Below are positions 5,121-17,066 of a stretch of DNA of 35,162 nucleotides, one piece after another; position 1 is the first letter of the stretch, and each line of letters opens with the position of its first letter. Source of the stretch: a virus; the IMG/VR virus record IMGVR_UViG_3300010158_000188, positions 1 through 35,162 of that record. One strand, 5' to 3'. Made by a program: the position numbers and the translations under genes. The notes under the pieces are model-generated. The model searched no databases, was not told the origin of the DNA, and saw only the letters and a program-made list of their open reading frames with translations.

Positions 5121-5461
5121 CAATTACTCCAGATGAAGTTGAGCAAAAACTTAAAAACTTATCTAAAGAAGTTGACGTAGCGCAACAAGATTTAGAGGCT
5201 GCTGAGTTGGAATATTACATATCTAAAGCCAGTTACGAAATTGCATTAGCAAAATCAAGATTAGTTTTAGGTAGCCAAGGCGTTAAAACTGTTGGAGAAC
5301 GAGAGGACAGGGCGCTGGTAGTAAATGAGGAATTGGCCCAACGTTTAGCAATTGCAGAAGCCAAGGTAAGAGCGGCTAGGGGTAATTCCCAGAGACTCCG
5401 TGAACAAGTTGATATAGCACGTTCAATTGGAACTAGCGTAAGGGCGGCAATGAACTTATGA
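5117..5461 (+). CDS. Coiled-coil hypothetical protein
   Basis: 114 residues from the ATGA start at 5117 (an upstream in-frame start at 5108 is inside the previous gene). Nearly the whole protein is predicted helix with heptad character: EQKLKNLSKEVDVAQQDLEA in the first part and AIAEAKVRAARGNSQRLREQ in the last. It has a short non-helical break around residues 53-63 (GSQGVKTVGER). This suggests an antiparallel hairpin of two long helices. It overlaps the Cas4-like nuclease gene by four bases and may be a partner or adaptor. Confidence 0.75.
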   Translation: MTITPDEVEQKLKNLSKEVDVAQQDLEAAELEYYISKASYEIALAKSRLVLGSQGVKTVGEREDRALVVNEELAQRLAIAEAKVRAARGNSQRLREQVDIARSIGTSVRAAMNL

Positions 5462-6114
5462 CCACAGATATAAATAAATTACTACGAAGCGCATTGGAGA
5501 CACATGACAACCAAAGACCACGTTCTCAACAAAAGGCTCTTGGCCCTTCAAGTATTGGAGATTGCTCAAGGCGAGTTTGGCACGCGTCTCACGATACGCC
5601 GCATACAAATCAAACAGACGGTCTCCCCGCAATCCTTGGAACCGCTATCCATGCCGCAATTGCAGAAGCCATTGCACTTGAGGACCCTTTTGGAGACGAC
5701 TTTTTAATTGAGGAAACCGTCCAAGGATTAGGGCGTACTGGCCACGTAGATTTATTTATCCGCAGCGCTGGTTTGGTGGTGGACTGGAAAACTACAAAAA
5801 AGAAATCATTACGTTACTTTCCCTCCGAGCAGCAAACGTTGCAGGTGCAAGTCTATGGCGTTTTAATGGAGGAAATGGGCCATAAAGTTAATGAAGTTTG
5901 CCTTGTTGCAATACCACGTGACGGCGAAATGGCAGACATTAAAGCCTGGCGTACTACCTATAACCGAGAAACTGGTTTACGTGGTTTGAACTGGTTGGAA
6001 AAAATTGAAAACATGGAGACAAAACCAGCGCCAGAAAAAAATGTTAAGTTCTGCTCCAAATACTGCAATTTTTATGACGCGTCAGGAGAAGTGGGTTGCC
6101 CGAGTTTGTTGTAG
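5458..6114 (+). CDS. Cas4/RecB-family PD-(D/E)XK nuclease with Fe-S cluster
   Basis: 218 residues. H65 (GTAIHAAIAEA), GHVDLF (D98) and VVDWKTTKKKS (D109, K111) give the PD-(D/E)XK active site; QVQVYG supplies the RecB-family QxxxY motif. One cysteine before the nuclease core (C36, GDCSRRVW) and three after it (C199, C203, C214) match the four-cysteine 4Fe-4S arrangement of Cas4 and AddB nucleases. It is probably a 5' or 3' DNA exonuclease producing single-stranded ends for the annealing protein at 4093. No CRISPR genes or arrays are nearby, so an adaptation role is not implied. Confidence 0.88.
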   Translation: MTTDINKLLRSALETHDNQRPRSQQKALGPSSIGDCSRRVWHASHDTPHTNQTDGLPAILGTAIHAAIAEAIALEDPFGDDFLIEETVQGLGRTGHVDLFIRSAGLVVDWKTTKKKSLRYFPSEQQTLQVQVYGVLMEEMGHKVNEVCLVAIPRDGEMADIKAWRTTYNRETGLRGLNWLEKIENMETKPAPEKNVKFCSKYCNFYDASGEVGCPSLL

Positions 6115-6449
6115 ATTACAAAAACGTTCATTGGGAAAAAGCAAATTGTCAAGACATTGGCACTAATGCGTTTTACGTAATGGACGACGAGCCAAAAGAC
6201 AGGCGATTAGTGAAAACTGAGTATGCGCGAGCCGTATGCGCGGTTTGCCCTATTCAAAAAAAGTGTCTGGAATATGCGTTTAAGCATGAACAGTACGGTT
6301 TATGGGGAGCAATGACTTCTCAAGAACGCGCTTATATCAAGACGGGCAAACTTGGTGGGCCAACAGTGCGCCAAGGATTAACAGAACTTAACTCTCTTGG
6401 CATATCTTTGAGAGAGGTTTACGCAACAGCGCGAAAGGCGGAAGCATGA
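6096..6449 (+). CDS. whiB: WhiB-family Fe-S transcription regulator
   Basis: 117 residues. The start is a TTG at 6096 with AGGAG seven bases upstream; no ATG lies before the first cysteine. Four cysteines C18, C48, C51, C57 (C-x29-C-x2-C-x5-C) would hold the 4Fe-4S cluster, and GLWGAMTSQER (68-78) is the family's G-[IV/L]-W-G turn. The following basic/HTH-like tail probably contacts DNA near the sigma-factor interface. WhiB proteins are essentially confined to Actinobacteria and their phages, which is the strongest host clue here. Phage WhiB proteins can reprogram host sigma-dependent promoters. It overlaps both neighbours. Confidence 0.93.
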   Translation: MPEFVVDYKNVHWEKANCQDIGTNAFYVMDDEPKDRRLVKTEYARAVCAVCPIQKKCLEYAFKHEQYGLWGAMTSQERAYIKTGKLGGPTVRQGLTELNSLGISLREVYATARKAEA

Positions 6450-7306
6450 GCATTAAGTTAATGACCTGGGTTTGGGAAAACTCACACTTTGAGGGAAAAA
6501 AACTATTGCTACACCTGGCTATGGCTGACCACGCTAACGACGACGGATATTTTTATGCAGGTCAAAAACGTTTAGCAGAAAGAGCCAGATGTACGCCTGA
6601 GCATATCCGCTTAGTTGTAAACGAAATGGTTCAAGAAGGTTATTTGATAATTGAGCGTAAAGGCAACACCTCAAAACACGCCACTCAATACAAATTGACG
6701 GTGCCAAAAACTCTTAAACCAAAACCCAACTATCACAAAGACCTTGACGCGGATTTTGAAAGGTGGGAAAAGTCTAAACAAAAGTTATCCACAGGGCAGG
6801 TTGACTCCCCAAATGATTTGGGTAGTGAAAACGTTGACTCCCCAAATCCAACGGGTCAACTCCCCAAATCCGCTTGGGGACAACCTATAAGAACCTTTAA
6901 TATAAAAGACAACGGCAACAAGTTGCCGACACCTGTAAAAGAAATATCTAAAATGCAAGAACTGGTTGCGCTTTATTTTGACAATTTAGAAAATGCTCCA
7001 GTTAAACCCACTGGGAAAATGATTGCTGGCCAGATTCAATTAGCGTTGCGGGATATTACGGTTGAGTACCTTGAAATCTTGATACCTATGGTGGCTCAAA
7101 GCGGCTTACCCTTGACGCCTAATACCTTGATGATTACGGCCAGGGAGCAAGCAAAACAGGTGGCAGACATAACACGTGCCAACAAGGATAAACAGGCCGC
7201 AAAAGAGCGTTCAGAGGCTTTAGACAGGGAGGCCAGGGAACGCCAGGCTAACGCGGTTCCTATGCCTGAGGCGATTAAGAATTTATTTAGAAACGTGGAC
7301 GCATAA
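6446..7306 (+). CDS. Phage replication initiator (winged-helix, lambda O-like organisation)
   Basis: 286 residues. The N-terminal 90 residues form a winged-helix domain: MTWVWENSHFEGKKLLLHLA, then QKRLAERARCTPEHIRLVVN and a wing ERKGNTSKHATQY. A hydrophilic linker (about 115-150) is encoded by the iteron cluster at 6785-6915. The C-terminal part is helical, with the long basic/acidic stretch RANKDKQAAKERSEALDREA. This order, with an origin inside the linker of its own initiator gene, matches lambda O and similar initiators. No helicase lies directly downstream in the window. ATGA overlap with whiB. Confidence 0.78.
   Translation: MSIKLMTWVWENSHFEGKKLLLHLAMADHANDDGYFYAGQKRLAERARCTPEHIRLVVNEMVQEGYLIIERKGNTSKHATQYKLTVPKTLKPKPNYHKDLDADFERWEKSKQKLSTGQVDSPNDLGSENVDSPNPTGQLPKSAWGQPIRTFNIKDNGNKLPTPVKEISKMQELVALYFDNLENAPVKPTGKMIAGQIQLALRDITVEYLEILIPMVAQSGLPLTPNTLMITAREQAKQVADITRANKDKQAAKERSEALDREARERQANAVPMPEAIKNLFRNVDA
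6785..6915. other. Putative replication origin: DnaA box, iterons, AT-rich segment
   Basis: Inside the initiator gene: a perfect DnaA-box consensus TTATCCACA at 6785-6793. Two exact iterons GTTGACTCCCCAAAT follow at 6800-6814 and 6833-6847, and a third (13 of 15 matching) at 6855-6869. An inverted partial copy lies at 6874-6885 (complement GGTTGTCCCCAA). Iteron spacings are 33 and 22 bases, whole helical turns. The first iteron overlaps a CCCAAAT-G-ATTTGGG dyad (6808-6822). An AT-rich stretch (6885-6907, ending TTTAATATAAAA) follows, as expected for a duplex-unwinding element. Confidence 0.7.
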
Positions 7307-7326
7307 CCTTACGTTATAGGTTATGC
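7301..7326. promoter_or_regulatory. Inverted repeat GCATAACC-N10-GGTTATGC
   Basis: Perfect 8-base arms at 7301-7308 and 7319-7326 with centre about 18 bases apart, spanning the stop codon of the initiator gene. It could be an operator for a dimeric protein or an RNA hairpin. There is no T-run after it, so it is a poor terminator. It lies just upstream of the small gene at 7347. Confidence 0.45.
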
Positions 7327-7346
7327 TTATGGTTACGGGGGTAGCA

Positions 7347-7538
7347 ATGGTTAAACAGATACCAGTGTGGAAATTACAAACAGGCGACGCCGTTTATTTA
7401 AAAGGCGCTCGCATGACAATTACTAACCTCAATGACGAAATTACAGGCGTCACAATGAGTTTAATTGACAATAGTGGGCGTGGTCATTGGGAAAATTTTG
7501 GCCATGACGATATTATCCCGCTTGACATAAGTGATTAA
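7347..7538 (+). CDS. Small beta-rich hypothetical protein
   Basis: 63 residues starting at ATG 7347, which follows GGGGG with 5 bases spacing; earlier in-frame ATGs at 7323 and 7329 fall within the inverted repeat and lack a ribosome site. The sequence (QTGDAVYLKGARMTITNLND ... TMSLIDNSGRGHWENF) looks like a small SH3-like or KOW-like beta barrel. No function known. It overlaps rusA by eight bases. Confidence 0.7.
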   Translation: MVKQIPVWKLQTGDAVYLKGARMTITNLNDEITGVTMSLIDNSGRGHWENFGHDDIIPLDISD

Positions 7539-7899
7539 ATTTGAGGTTGAGGGCCACCCAGTAACCCAGGGTTCAATGAAAGTTATCAACGGACGTGTTT
7601 TGCATAGTCGCGGTGAGGCTTTAATTCTCTGGCGAACAATGGTTGCGATAGCAGCGCGTAAAGCGGGTTGTTTTCCAGTACCAAATCCAGTTGAAATGAC
7701 AATTGACTTCCGTTTGCCACGCCCTAAAACAGTCCGCAGAAACTTGCCCTACGTTGCACCTGACCTTGATAAGTTAATTCGCGCGGTTCTTGACTCGCTT
7801 ACTGGAGTTGCATACGTGGACGACGGTCAAGTTGTCACAATAAATTCAACCAAAACTTACGGTGAGCCTGGAGTGACAATCACGCTTGATACTTTGTGA
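7531..7899 (+). CDS. rusA: RusA-family Holliday junction resolvase
   Basis: 122 residues from a GTG start. Family marks in order: GHPVTQGSMK near the N-terminus, W34, DFRLPRPKTVRR (59-70), the catalytic PDLDKLIRAVLDSLTG (77-92, D78 and D80), DDGQVV (97-102) and K108. RusA is a dimeric nuclease that cuts four-way junctions during replication and recombination, and so can clear branched DNA before packaging. It is the last gene of this run. Its TGA stop lies inside the conserved GTGACC element that precedes promoter P2. Confidence 0.92.
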   Translation: MIKFEVEGHPVTQGSMKVINGRVLHSRGEALILWRTMVAIAARKAGCFPVPNPVEMTIDFRLPRPKTVRRNLPYVAPDLDKLIRAVLDSLTGVAYVDDGQVVTINSTKTYGEPGVTITLDTL

Positions 7900-13511: not shown

Positions 13512-13718
13512 GTGAACATTACCGAGGAAGTGTCCCTTGCTGAACTAGATGAGGCAATGGGGCACCTTGCTGAGCAGTTAAAAGACCGCTACGGCAATCG
13601 CTTAACATGGCAACGTAAAACCTTGCTCATGGAAAGCATGGACGATTTACTTGATTACAGGTTAATGCTTACGAAAGGCGAAAATGGAGACAGTAACAGC
13701 ATTGGTGGAAACTCTTAA
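13512..13718 (+). CDS. Helical hypothetical protein
   Basis: 68 residues from GTG 13512; no clear ribosome site, so the start may be later. Helical: EEVSLAELDEAMGHLAEQLK, then TLLMESMDDLLDYRLMLTKG. The C-terminal part overlaps the next gene by 35 bases, a larger overlap than elsewhere here. The protein could be a terminase- or DNA-binding accessory. Unrecognised. Confidence 0.62.
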   Translation: MNITEEVSLAELDEAMGHLAEQLKDRYGNRLTWQRKTLLMESMDDLLDYRLMLTKGENGDSNSIGGNS

Positions 13719-14262
13719 AGAGTATCCAGGGAACCCGCGTAAAGGCGATATTGACGCTATTGCTGAATCGTTGAAAGTTAATGGGCAATACAAGCCGATA
13801 GTTGTCCAGGAAAGCACTGGGTACGTTTTAGTCGGGAACCATACGCTCAAGGCAGCCCGTAAATTAGGTTGGGACTTTATTGAAACCGTGGAAGTTGATG
13901 TTGACGATGAAGGCGCTAAAAGAATTGTTTTAGCCGACAACCGTACAAGTGACGCCTCAACTTATGACTATGACCTTTTGGCTGAAATGTTAAAGTCGCT
14001 ACCCTCAATTAAAGGTACAGGCTATGACGCTGAGTCATTAAGTGCGTTACTTAACGAAGTCTCTGGAATTTTGCCTGAAATGCAAGAAAACGGCGTAACG
14101 GCAGGTTTAGGTACCCCGATTATTCATTACGACATTATTTTTGATACTGAGGAACAGCAAGTCGTTTGGCATAACTACTTGAAATGGCTAAGATTGCAAG
14201 AACCCGAAGGGCAAACAAATGCAGCGCGCATGGCATTGCACTTGAGAAAGGTTATGTCATGA
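13684..14262 (+). CDS. ParB/sulfiredoxin-like domain protein
   Basis: 192 residues. Typical ParB N-terminal domain: YPGNPRKGDIDAIAESLKVN, GQYKPIVVQ, YVLVGNHTLKAARKLGW (the GxHxLxAA loop, with N-H replacing E/G-HR) and VLADNRTSD. It lacks the central HTH of a chromosomal ParB, as in phage ParB-like proteins that bind CTP or work in DNA modification or as methyltransferase N-terminal modules. The C-terminal part (TPIIHYDIIFDTEEQQVVWH) resembles a segment often following such domains in phages. First gene of the modification-like cluster. Confidence 0.82.
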   Translation: METVTALVETLKEYPGNPRKGDIDAIAESLKVNGQYKPIVVQESTGYVLVGNHTLKAARKLGWDFIETVEVDVDDEGAKRIVLADNRTSDASTYDYDLLAEMLKSLPSIKGTGYDAESLSALLNEVSGILPEMQENGVTAGLGTPIIHYDIIFDTEEQQVVWHNYLKWLRLQEPEGQTNAARMALHLRKVMS

Positions 14263-14879
14263 GTACCTTGAAAAAATATCAAGATGAGTTAAAACTCAAA
14301 GGCGGCGTGTTGATTAAAGGGTTTGTTGAACCTAACGTTGCTCTTGAGTGGGCTGAGCGGGCCAAGGCTGGCATTCAATCAAGAATTGACCGCCCTGTAA
14401 TTGAAGCAAAAGAATTAGATGAAGGTGGAGAGCGTCACGGCAAAATTGCAGACGCGTTTGAAGCGGAAAAAGTATTGCCTGAAATTTTTGGTTTGTATCA
14501 AGGTGCCAGGTTATTTTTGTCAGAGTTAATTGAACGCCCTGTAATTTGTTCACCTTATCCACGAAGCACCGTAACGCTCAAAGTTTATGACCGCCCTGGA
14601 GACCAGCAAGGTTGGCACCGTGACACTAATCCATTGACAGCGTTACTTATTGCCACCGAGACCCTAGGCAATTACGGTACTGAAATTGAAGCGCGTGACG
14701 GCTCAGTATTTAATTTAGAAAACCAGCCAGGTGATTTATGGGTTATGTATGGCCGCGAATTACGCCATAGAGTGCCGTCTATTCCAGAAGGTAAGTGGCG
14801 AGTAACTATTCCGTTGAACTATTACCACCCAGACGATGTTTGGCGCCCTCAAGGTACCGATAATCTAATTTACGGATAA
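14259..14879 (+). CDS. 2OG-Fe(II)-dependent oxygenase
   Basis: 206 residues from the ATGA start at 14259; a longer frame from 14184 lies inside the previous gene. Fe ligands are H120 and D122 in QQGWHRDTNPL and H170 in ELRHRV; R181 in KWRVTIPLNYY binds 2-oxoglutarate. The double-stranded beta-helix strands around residues 105-185 fit the family. Substrate is unknown: hydroxylation of a nucleic-acid base, protein or small molecule are options. The neighbours (ParB-like and PAPS-reductase-like proteins) suggest a DNA or nucleotide substrate. The AlkB-type nucleotide recognition lid is not obvious. Confidence 0.83.
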   Translation: MSTLKKYQDELKLKGGVLIKGFVEPNVALEWAERAKAGIQSRIDRPVIEAKELDEGGERHGKIADAFEAEKVLPEIFGLYQGARLFLSELIERPVICSPYPRSTVTLKVYDRPGDQQGWHRDTNPLTALLIATETLGNYGTEIEARDGSVFNLENQPGDLWVMYGRELRHRVPSIPEGKWRVTIPLNYYHPDDVWRPQGTDNLIYG

Positions 14880-14881
14880 GC

Positions 14882-15946
14882 ATGCCAAGATATAAACGCT
14901 ATATTGAGGCGAACGTTTATGATGAAGCAAAAAAACGTTTACACCATATTTACGATACGCATGACAGCGTAGTCGTTGCATTTTCTGGCGGTAAAGACTC
15001 TCTTGCACTGTTGCATGTCACTAAAGAGGTTGCATTAGAACGCGGTCTAAAAAAAGTACACGCAGTTTTCCGTGATGAGGAAGTAATCCACCAACAAGTT
15101 GTTGATTTTGTCCGTGGATATATGGACGAGCCTTGGCTTGACCTTGCTTGGTGGACAGTACCGCTGCAATCGCACAAATTTATTCTTGGCAAAATGATGG
15201 ACTACACACAATGGGACCCTGACCGTCAATGGGTAAGACCAAAACCTGAGTGGGGTTTAACTGAGAAAGATTTAGATATACCGCTCAACACTCCACTTAC
15301 ACAGTATTCCGCAGACGACTTAATGATTCGCAACTTTCCTGGGAAGGTAGCAATACTTACTGGAGTACGCGCCGCTGAGTCAATGATTAGATTTAGGTCA
15401 TGCGTAAATAAACTTAACGAGAATTATATTAACGCGTGCAGTAGTCCAAGAGGAGTTTTAGCCAGGCCGATTTATGACTGGGTTGAAAATGACGTGTTTA
15501 AGTATTTTTATGACAACGATATTAAATATTGTCCTATTTACGACAACCAGTTATGGGCGCGACGTCAATTTAGAGTGGCAAGCGGTATAACAAGCGAAGC
15601 CTCCAGAGAATTTGGCAAAACACGCGAGTATGACCCTGACCTTTATGCAGCAATTATTGAGGTGTTTCCTGAAATTATTGTTCAAGAGCGTTATTACAAA
15701 GAATTAGACAAAGAGGCAATTATTAGGCAGTACGCCACGTCGTTTGACTCTATTGAACTCTGGATACAAGAAAACATTACTGACGAGCGCCAGTTCAAAA
15801 AAGCCATGAAAGAACTAGGCCGCGTAAAAGGGTTGGCCAAAATATCCCCAGGACTTTACCCGTTTGATTACGTACTCAAAAACTTTATGACTGAGGGCGG
15901 CAAGCGCAACATATTCCCACTAATTGTCAAGAAGGAGAAAATATGA
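14882..15946 (+). CDS. PAPS-reductase-like protein (COG3969/IbrA type)
   Basis: 354 residues. The PP-loop SGGKDS (35-40) follows HDSVVVAF, with the helical YEANVYDEAKKRL start and FRDEEVIHQQVVDFVR. Further marks: GVRAAESMIRFRSC and PIYDWVENDVFKYF. This is the phage/IbrA branch of the N-type ATP pyrophosphatases rather than a true sulfate-assimilation reductase, as the redox-active C-terminal ECGLH is absent. It is paired with an IbrB-like ParB protein directly downstream, as ibrA-ibrB occur in prophages of enterobacteria. Activity of the pair is not established. The end overlaps the next ATG. Confidence 0.88.
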   Translation: MPRYKRYIEANVYDEAKKRLHHIYDTHDSVVVAFSGGKDSLALLHVTKEVALERGLKKVHAVFRDEEVIHQQVVDFVRGYMDEPWLDLAWWTVPLQSHKFILGKMMDYTQWDPDRQWVRPKPEWGLTEKDLDIPLNTPLTQYSADDLMIRNFPGKVAILTGVRAAESMIRFRSCVNKLNENYINACSSPRGVLARPIYDWVENDVFKYFYDNDIKYCPIYDNQLWARRQFRVASGITSEASREFGKTREYDPDLYAAIIEVFPEIIVQERYYKELDKEAIIRQYATSFDSIELWIQENITDERQFKKAMKELGRVKGLAKISPGLYPFDYVLKNFMTEGGKRNIFPLIVKKEKI

Positions 15947-16500
15947 AAGACCCAATTAACGACATTGTTTGGCGCAACGTTGAGGAGTTAAGGGCCAATC
16001 ATTGGAACCCTAACCGCGTGCATAAAATGGAATTAAAACTACTTGAACACTCTTTACTTAGTACAGGTTGGATACAGCCAATTTTAACTAACGAGACTGG
16101 CCTTATCATTGACGGTTTTCACCGCTGGCGTTTATCCCAGGACAGTAAAGCGGTACGCGCTCGCTACGACGGCAAGGTTCCAGTAGCCACGCTTCCAGTT
16201 GACGACGCTACTGCTATGGCTATTACGGTACGCATTAACCGCGCCAAGGGAACACACGTTGCTATTGAAATGCACAATCTAGTGACGTCTTTAATTACTG
16301 AGCATGGCTGGACGCGTGAGCAAGTCGCAAAAGAAATTGGGGCAAACCTGGACGAAGTGGACGCATTGGCTCAAGAGGGTATTTTTGCCGCAAAAAAGAT
16401 AAAGGATTGGGGTTATAGCCACGCTTGGTATCCAGGCGAAGGCCCTGTCGGTGGTGAGGCTGGTACTCAATGGGCTAGAGAACAAGGGTTAAGTATTTAA
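15943..16500 (+). CDS. ParB-like protein, IbrB type
   Basis: 185 residues. WNPNRVHKMELKLLEHSLLS, GWIQPILTN, LIIDGFHRWRLSQ, VPVATLPVDDATAMAITVRI, NRAKGTH: the ParB/sulfiredoxin core with GFHRW as the phosphate/nucleotide loop and the RINRAKGTH motif of IbrB-type proteins. A small HTH-like C-terminal segment (GWTREQVAKEIGANLDEVDA) follows. ATGA overlap with the PAPS-reductase-like gene implies stoichiometric expression and a complex. Confidence 0.85.
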   Translation: MKDPINDIVWRNVEELRANHWNPNRVHKMELKLLEHSLLSTGWIQPILTNETGLIIDGFHRWRLSQDSKAVRARYDGKVPVATLPVDDATAMAITVRINRAKGTHVAIEMHNLVTSLITEHGWTREQVAKEIGANLDEVDALAQEGIFAAKKIKDWGYSHAWYPGEGPVGGEAGTQWAREQGLSI

Positions 16501-16502
16501 GC

Positions 16503-17066
16503 ATGAGGTTTAACGCGCCAGAATATCTTGAGGACTGGAAAAACGGGAAGTACCCAAATATCCATAAGATTATGTTTAACGCCGTAAAACTTTATGGCCA
16601 AGGCAATAACGTCTTGGACTTATGCTGCTCAACTGGATTACTTGGTACTCAAATTGCGGAGAAGTTAGGCAAAACCGTAATAGGTATTGAGTCAAGCCTA
16701 GTGTCAATTGACCTGGCTAAAGCGTATGGCATACCAATACCTATCCAGCAAATGAAATTGACTCGTGACACATTGGAACCTTTTGTAACCTTTTGTAACC
16801 TTTACTCAATTCAAACAATTGTTGCTAGACGCTGCATACCTGAGTTATTCGGTGAGGACTATGACTTTGGTTTAGAGTTTGTTGCAGCCATGGCCACCAT
16901 TGGAGTCAAAGAAATATTTTTGGAAGGCCGCGTTAAAACAGCAAACGCCACAAATATATTTAACTCAGTTGAACACGAAATAGACTTGTTTAATACTTAT
17001 GACATGTATAAGGTTACGAAAAGATTAGGAAACATAGGTTATTTAACTTTATCGGAGGCGATATGA
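16503..17066 (+). CDS. SAM-dependent methyltransferase-like protein
   Basis: 187 residues. NVLDLCCSTGLLGTQIAE (37-54) is motif I, and VIGIESSLVSIDLAKAY (59-75) with E63 contacts the SAM ribose. No DPPY/NPPF or PC motif typical of DNA amino- or cytosine-methyltransferases is present; after VARRCIPELFG the rest is unremarkable. The catalytic residue is therefore unassigned; it could methylate a nucleotide, protein or an intermediate made by the neighbours. Last gene of the modification-like cluster, overlapping the following HNH gene. Confidence 0.7.
   Translation: MRFNAPEYLEDWKNGKYPNIHKIMFNAVKLYGQGNNVLDLCCSTGLLGTQIAEKLGKTVIGIESSLVSIDLAKAYGIPIPIQQMKLTRDTLEPFVTFCNLYSIQTIVARRCIPELFGEDYDFGLEFVAAMATIGVKEIFLEGRVKTANATNIFNSVEHEIDLFNTYDMYKVTKRLGNIGYLTLSEAI

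Follow-up and report, generated by a model that had tools for sequence, protein, structure and literature searches.

In P1 oriR, RK2 and pSC101, whose initiators are of the Rep_3 and similar families, the initiator's iterons lie beside a DnaA box and an AT-rich region, and the origin is found outside the initiator gene. Other origins are carried within the gene of the protein that reads them. In lambda, the iterons of ori-lambda lie in the middle of the initiator gene O, with an AT-rich region on one side (PMC7466680), and in SPP1 the direct repeats and the AT-rich unwinding element of oriL lie within gene 38, which encodes the origin-binding protein (PMC6316719). The plasmids pPR9 and pSK41 differ over about 500 bp that cover the DNA-binding domain and the ori, while the C-domain stayed the same, and the pPR9 N-domain is a PF13730 (HTH_36) domain homologous to a phage replication protein (PMC5703833). 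Many of the theta plasmids in E. coli make use of DnaA, and DnaA boxes were not detected in the staphylococcal plasmids (PMC5703833).

The DNA studied here, called the window, is a 35,162-base IMG/VR virus record, IMGVR_UViG_3300010158_000188, from position 1 to 35,162; the record is possibly incomplete. Based on its sequence and on that of its relatives, bases 6785-6928, inside the linker-coding part of an initiator gene, are very probably the theta-replication origin of this phage (probability roughly 0.86).

The initiator gene and its neighbours

Judged by its profile matches, the gene at 6446-7306 is an "O-like" phage initiator. The HTH_36 (PF13730) match at the N-terminus has an E value of 4e-6 and 27.0 bits, with a curated cut-off of 25. 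The best PHROG match is phrog_391, "replication initiation O-like" (E 7.5e-11), which aligns initiator residues 1-134 with positions 1-141 of a profile of 298, and the other PHROG matches are also annotated as O-like or as replication initiation. At Pfam E values up to 10 the protein matched only HTH_36 and weaker HTH families, with no match to Phage_rep_O (PF04492) and none to RepA_N (PF06970), and at the same threshold the C-domain had no match at all.

The structure of the initiator was predicted with AlphaFold2. The pLDDT is about 92 for residues 1-70 and below 50 for most of residues 116-163, and the C-domain is modelled with moderate confidence. The best Foldseek matches of the model were 4pql, 4pt7 and 5kbj, which are titled "N-Terminal domain of DNA binding protein", "Structure of initiator" and "Structure of Rep-DNA complex". 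This match is limited to the common winged helix, and it is not discriminating, as other, unrelated winged-helix proteins reached an equal or higher Z in a second structural alignment. Because the C-domain has no Pfam match and only modest model confidence, its role in recruiting a helicase is one that we infer.

The gene lies in a compact neighbourhood, shown in Table 1 together with the elements of the linker DNA. The WhiB-like gene overlaps both the stop of the exonuclease gene and the start of the initiator gene, and the next long ORF 3' of the initiator is RusA. A single-stranded DNA-binding protein (SSB) is encoded at 12.95 kb, and there are no tRNA genes in the window. Because the WhiB gene points there, the phage host is probably actinobacterial; the similarity of TerL is distant and is largely to actinophages, with others too. 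Further along, two ParB-like proteins are encoded at 13684-14262 and 15943-16500. The stretch 13684-17066 also encodes a PAPS-reductase/PP-loop protein (14882-15946), a 231-aa protein and a methyltransferase, and this group of genes is possibly a DNA-modification cluster.

Table 1. Features of the initiator gene, of the candidate origin in its linker DNA and of the adjoining genes; positions are those of the window, or residues (aa) of the initiator
Feature	Position	Strand	Basis or remark
PD-(D/E)XK exonuclease	5458..6114	+	upstream neighbour; Pfam PF12705, phrog_1674
WhiB-like regulator	6096..6449	+	Pfam Whib E 1.6e-14
Replication initiator gene (861 bases, 286 aa)	6446..7306	+	Pfam HTH_36, phrog_391, AlphaFold2 model
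Winged-helix HTH_36 domain of initiator	aa 1-85		N-terminal
Disordered linker of initiator, its DNA containing the candidate origin	about aa 89-163		
Helical C-domain of initiator	about aa 164-285		
DnaA box TTATCCACA, perfect E. coli consensus	6785..6793	+	sole exact match in 35 kb
Iteron 1 GTTGACTCCCCAAAT	6800..6814	+	exact copy
Inverted partial iteron ACTACCCAAAT	6816..6826	-	10/11 match
Iteron 2 GTTGACTCCCCAAAT	6833..6847	+	exact copy
Iteron 3 GTCAACTCCCCAAAT	6855..6869	+	13/15, two changes relative to GTTGACTCCCCAAAT
Terminal inverted partial iteron, GGTTGTCCCCAA on - strand	6874..6885	-	read from sequence
AT-rich stretch, candidate unwinding element	about 6880..6909		77% AT over 30 bp
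Dyad CGGCAACAAGTTGCCG, 16 bases	6913..6928		same in L003 and L004 (alignment)
RusA-like resolvase	7531..7899	+	downstream neighbour; Pfam RusA E 4.7e-14

Repeats in the linker-coding DNA

A sequence-only reading of this DNA had described most of these elements, and the perfect DnaA box, the 33- and 22-base steps between iterons and the AT-rich stretch were all found as it had them. Other parts of that description needed adjustment. Its three iterons are two exact copies and a third that matches at 13 of 15 bases, and its single inverted partial copy is there and is one of two. The spacing that it gave as whole turns comes to 3.1 and 2.1 turns, which is roughly but not exactly in phase, and the 130-base block that it drew at 6785-6915 extends to about 6928 when the CGGCAACAAGTTGCCG dyad is included.

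The DnaA box is separated from iteron 1 by 6 nt. Iteron 1 and the inverted copy next to it form an 11-bp dyad with a 1-nt spacer, and the terminal inverted copy pairs with iteron 3 in a second dyad; a terminal dyad likewise ends the array in the relatives L020, L035, L041 and L048. Within the AT-rich stretch, the 20-bp maximum of 85% AT, at 6886, is matched by 0.6% of window positions. Third codon positions near the AT-rich stretch and the CGGCAACAAGTTGCCG dyad are 83-88% conserved between the window and its near relatives L003 and L004, compared with 73-75% in the C-domain, in what is a small sample.

The repeats were compared with what the protein sequence would impose. Iterons 1 and 2 share a frame and encode VDSPN, so that two of the three copies could simply mirror a repetitive VDSPN linker of the protein, but iteron 3 is in another frame and encodes GQLPK, and in relatives consecutive copies 23 bp apart pass through all three frames. 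The repeat score of the initiator gene was reached in 0 of 1500 synonymous-codon shuffles. A repeat at the level of the peptide is thus hardly credible, and the frame and shuffle tests led us to reject it for the whole array. Because of the same shuffles and the frame of iteron 3, the window's iterons are, on the evidence of codon usage, genuine and under selection at the DNA level. For the DnaA box the case is different: a perfect box appeared somewhere in the gene in 457 of 20000 codon shuffles (2.3%), and because of this rate of chance occurrence per gene the box by itself is only suggestive.

Initiators and DnaA boxes in relatives

A single-sequence search of IMG/VR with the initiator gave no matches, because the HTH and the linker change fastest. 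Relatives were gathered instead with the exonuclease gene as bait, along with an alignment search, a third search and bacterial genomes, for a total of 103 initiators, nonredundant at 85% nucleotide identity. Loci L006-L008 were collected through RusA matches only, and the phage of L008 is of another type. In 57 of 80 related loci an HTH_36-type initiator lies 268-340 bases downstream of the exonuclease. The order exonuclease-WhiB-initiator is likewise seen in 57 of the 80, with the WhiB gene inferred from the spacing and, in several loci, from ORFs.

Significant iterons, defined as at least 3 iterons with a score reached by at most 1 in 100 codon shuffles, were found in the linkers of 46 of the 64 nonredundant initiators of the first set, and 39 of those 46 have copies spread over more than one frame. 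The array lies at a median 36-47% of gene length. The commonest steps are 23, 30, 21, 22 and 33, mostly 21-23 or 30-33 bp, and the iterons of many relatives share the core GGGGNGWCA, which the window's iteron holds on the opposite strand (ATTTGGGGAGTCAAC). Iterons unconserved beyond codon constraints had been named by the sequence-only reading as a sign against an origin, and with 0 of 1500 shuffles in the window and 46 of 64 relatives this is not what was found. Its placing of the origin in the linker-coding part of the initiator gains strong support from codon-independence and from the same architecture in dozens of relatives.

The similarity of iterons tracks the similarity of winged helices, with a Mantel rho of 0.61 (0 of 1000 permutations as high). 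For pairs less than 70% identical rho is 0.41, and shared ancestry confounds the correlation. The same pattern can be followed between the window and L003/L004. These two have 84-86% nucleotide and 89-92% amino acid identity to the window in the exonuclease gene, 95% amino acid identity in RusA and 80-81% nucleotide identity in the initiator C-domain, but only 66-67% nucleotide and 67-68% amino acid identity in the HTH. Their linker differs from the window's: its repeats are of the AAAGGCCCAACTCTG type, follow one another in steps of 44 and 22 bp and include an inverted copy. There are fewer of them, they are weaker, and by themselves they are not significant against codon shuffles. Directly 3' of the iteron array the alignment is good again. 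The HTH and the candidate sites thus appear to have changed jointly while the rest of the region was kept, and the low HTH identity could be fast divergence instead of exchange. The closest full-length relatives besides these, L011-L013, carry CTCCCCAACT iterons.

Since the window encodes ParB-like proteins at 13.7-16.5 kb, the array could in principle be a parS-like partition site for them. This is very improbable, as the site is part of the initiator gene and varies in sequence along with the initiator HTH, and no ParA was found among the scanned window proteins.

Two side observations concern the surroundings of the array and of the gene. In many relatives, including L018, L020, L021, L041 and L055, two to three GAACCRTCA-type direct repeats about 10-12 bp apart lie 3' of the iterons, and L027 has GAAACACCC repeats there; they possibly belong to the unwinding element. 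The slot that follows WhiB, downstream of the exonuclease, is filled by other genes in about a dozen relatives (for example L119, L126, L164, L169, L170, L175 and L181). Its occupants include probable initiators of other types ("MSIVRSPRPDNHYTIV...", "YMQLYVADYLADTAHL...") and, in L151, L172 and L183, a DNA-methyltransferase-like gene; origin modules seem to be exchanged at this place.

DnaA boxes were counted in the linker zone (nt 241-430) of the relatives, with the window excluded and with expected counts taken from codon shuffles, whose P values treat related genes as independent. The perfect TTATCCACA box occurs there in 6 genes, where 0.77 were expected (P 1.5e-4), and TTRTCCACA in 11, where the expectation was 1.15 (P 4e-8); outside the zone the counts are 1 against 0.24 and 2 against 0.54. 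Grouped into HTH clusters at 60% identity, TTATCCACA is present in 4 of 21 clusters, with 0.69 expected by chance (P 0.006). At 50% it is present in 3 against 0.69 (P 0.03) and TTRTCCACA in 3 against 1.02 (P 0.08), and at 45% the clustering merges nearly all initiators. The order of the window, with the DnaA box followed by iterons and then by a downstream element, recurs in L035, L090 and L106.

Relatives carry both TTATCCACA and TTGTCCACA boxes, and a freshwater Actinomycetota genome (G001, C102:15414-15626) carries, next to dnaA, four TTATCCACA in a stretch of 213 bp, a site which is probably an oriC with the E. coli-type box. This genome serves as a freshwater Actinomycetota for comparison only, not as an identified host. 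The contrast that had been drawn between the window's E. coli-type box and actinobacterial boxes does not survive these two observations.

Whether the box is used is a closer question. The window's nearest relatives L003, L004, L011 and L013 have no DnaA box, and because of this the window's own box may be dispensable or a chance match. The iterons could then be the origin on their own, with the phage initiator and a host helicase sufficient, as is largely so in lambda, where dependence on DnaA is described through pR transcription and competition for DnaB (PMC7466680). The 2.3% of codon shuffles that contain a perfect box fit such an origin, while the 8- to 10-fold enrichment of boxes in the relatives' linker zones, which extends over four HTH clusters other than that of the window, and the short distance from the box to the first iteron stand against it; we regard it as a real possibility that falls somewhat below even odds. 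That host DnaA takes part, as the sequence-only reading had proposed, is plausible given the family-wide enrichment, and it is not general, as the close kin without a box show. For the window's origin, DnaA taking part is slightly more likely than not.

Proposed mechanism and comparison with described origins

By analogy with lambda and SPP1, the N-terminal winged helix of the initiator would bind the three direct iterons and the two inverted copies, at sites a few helical turns apart, and would bend the DNA; the adjoining AT-rich stretch would then melt, and the C-domain, host DnaA at 6785, or both may help to recruit and load a host DnaB-type helicase. A host helicase is proposed because the scan of the window's proteins gave no helicase, primase, polymerase or known loader; the record is possibly incomplete, and the short ORF at 7323-7538 lies outside the scanned set. 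The DNA-binding domain and its site would be inherited and exchanged jointly, as one cassette, because the site lies within the gene of the protein that reads it.

A skew minimum elsewhere was the other sign against an origin named by the sequence-only reading, and on this the skew is neutral, speaking neither for an origin here nor against one. Neither GC nor TA skew has a signal or turn at the candidate origin: GC skew is positive and equal on either side of 6.85 kb (0.039 and 0.039 over 2 kb), and the detrended minimum and maximum are at 4.0 kb and 22.7 kb, in a window where the long genes are nearly all on one strand and replication is possibly one-way or concatemeric. This lack of support from skew would suit an autoregulatory operator, with the initiator or WhiB acting on transcription of its own gene or of those downstream while replication starts elsewhere. 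The iterons of known initiators often double as autoregulatory sites, and these sites lie downstream of the WhiB and initiator starts, within the transcribed operon. An operator is nevertheless improbable, as the array is in the middle of the gene and not at a promoter, dozens of O-like initiators use the same position, and the array adjoins an AT-rich stretch, like those of lambda and SPP1 (PMC7466680, PMC6316719).

Read as an origin, the array is an experimentally tractable candidate for a group of uncultured, probably actinobacterial phages. The origins of many phages may be readable straight from the initiator gene, with out-of-frame repeats in the linker as the diagnostic. The joint changes of HTH and iterons are a natural resource for working out how winged-helix initiators select their target DNA, and with the DnaA-box subset the use of DnaA at intragenic phage origins becomes testable. 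Tentatively, at a little short of even odds, the HTH_36 initiators of phages can be read as a large class of self-contained origin cassettes, each made of a winged helix and its cognate iterons in the linker DNA. A DnaA-box module, optional but recurrent, would sit just upstream of the iterons or among them. If this is true, phages of diverse bacteria, this one probably actinobacterial, tie their intragenic origin to the DnaA of the host, in contrast to lambda and to plasmids of the pSK41 type.

The window's candidate origin belongs to a known kind of intragenic iteron origin, that of lambda O, SPP1 gene 38 and pSK41/pPR9 rep. It resembles lambda O and the O genes of Stx phages in its mid-gene iterons, its AT-rich flank and an N-domain as the expected binder. 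Lambda has 4 iterons and Stx phages have 6, each an imperfect 19-bp inverted repeat, whereas the window has 3 direct and 2 inverted copies of 11-15 bp. The term "lambda-like", used in the sequence-only reading, holds as a way of working; because there is no PF04492 match and no gene like that of the lambda P loader was found among the scanned proteins, membership in the lambda O family is not supported. A further difference is the window's DnaA box. SPP1 gene 38/oriL likewise has repeats and an AT-rich element inside the initiator gene, and differs in having the loader gp39, the helicase gp40 and, as a second origin, oriR; the window gave no match to any of the three.

The rep genes of pPR9 and pSK41 (RepA_N) share with the window's initiator a DNA-binding N-domain, a central linker encoded by the ori and a separate C-domain, and the replacement of N-domain and ori in pPR9 is the pattern seen between the window and L003/L004; they are Firmicutes plasmids with another iteron sequence, and the window is a phage. 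P1 oriR, RK2 and pSC101 are alike in that iterons adjoin a DnaA box and an AT-rich region, but they have initiators of the Rep_3 family and origins outside the initiator gene, where the window has an HTH_36 initiator and an intragenic origin. What the window and its relatives add to these systems is of interest for iterons that occur family-wide and independently of frame, for an HTH and iterons that change as a pair, and for a DnaA box that recurs.
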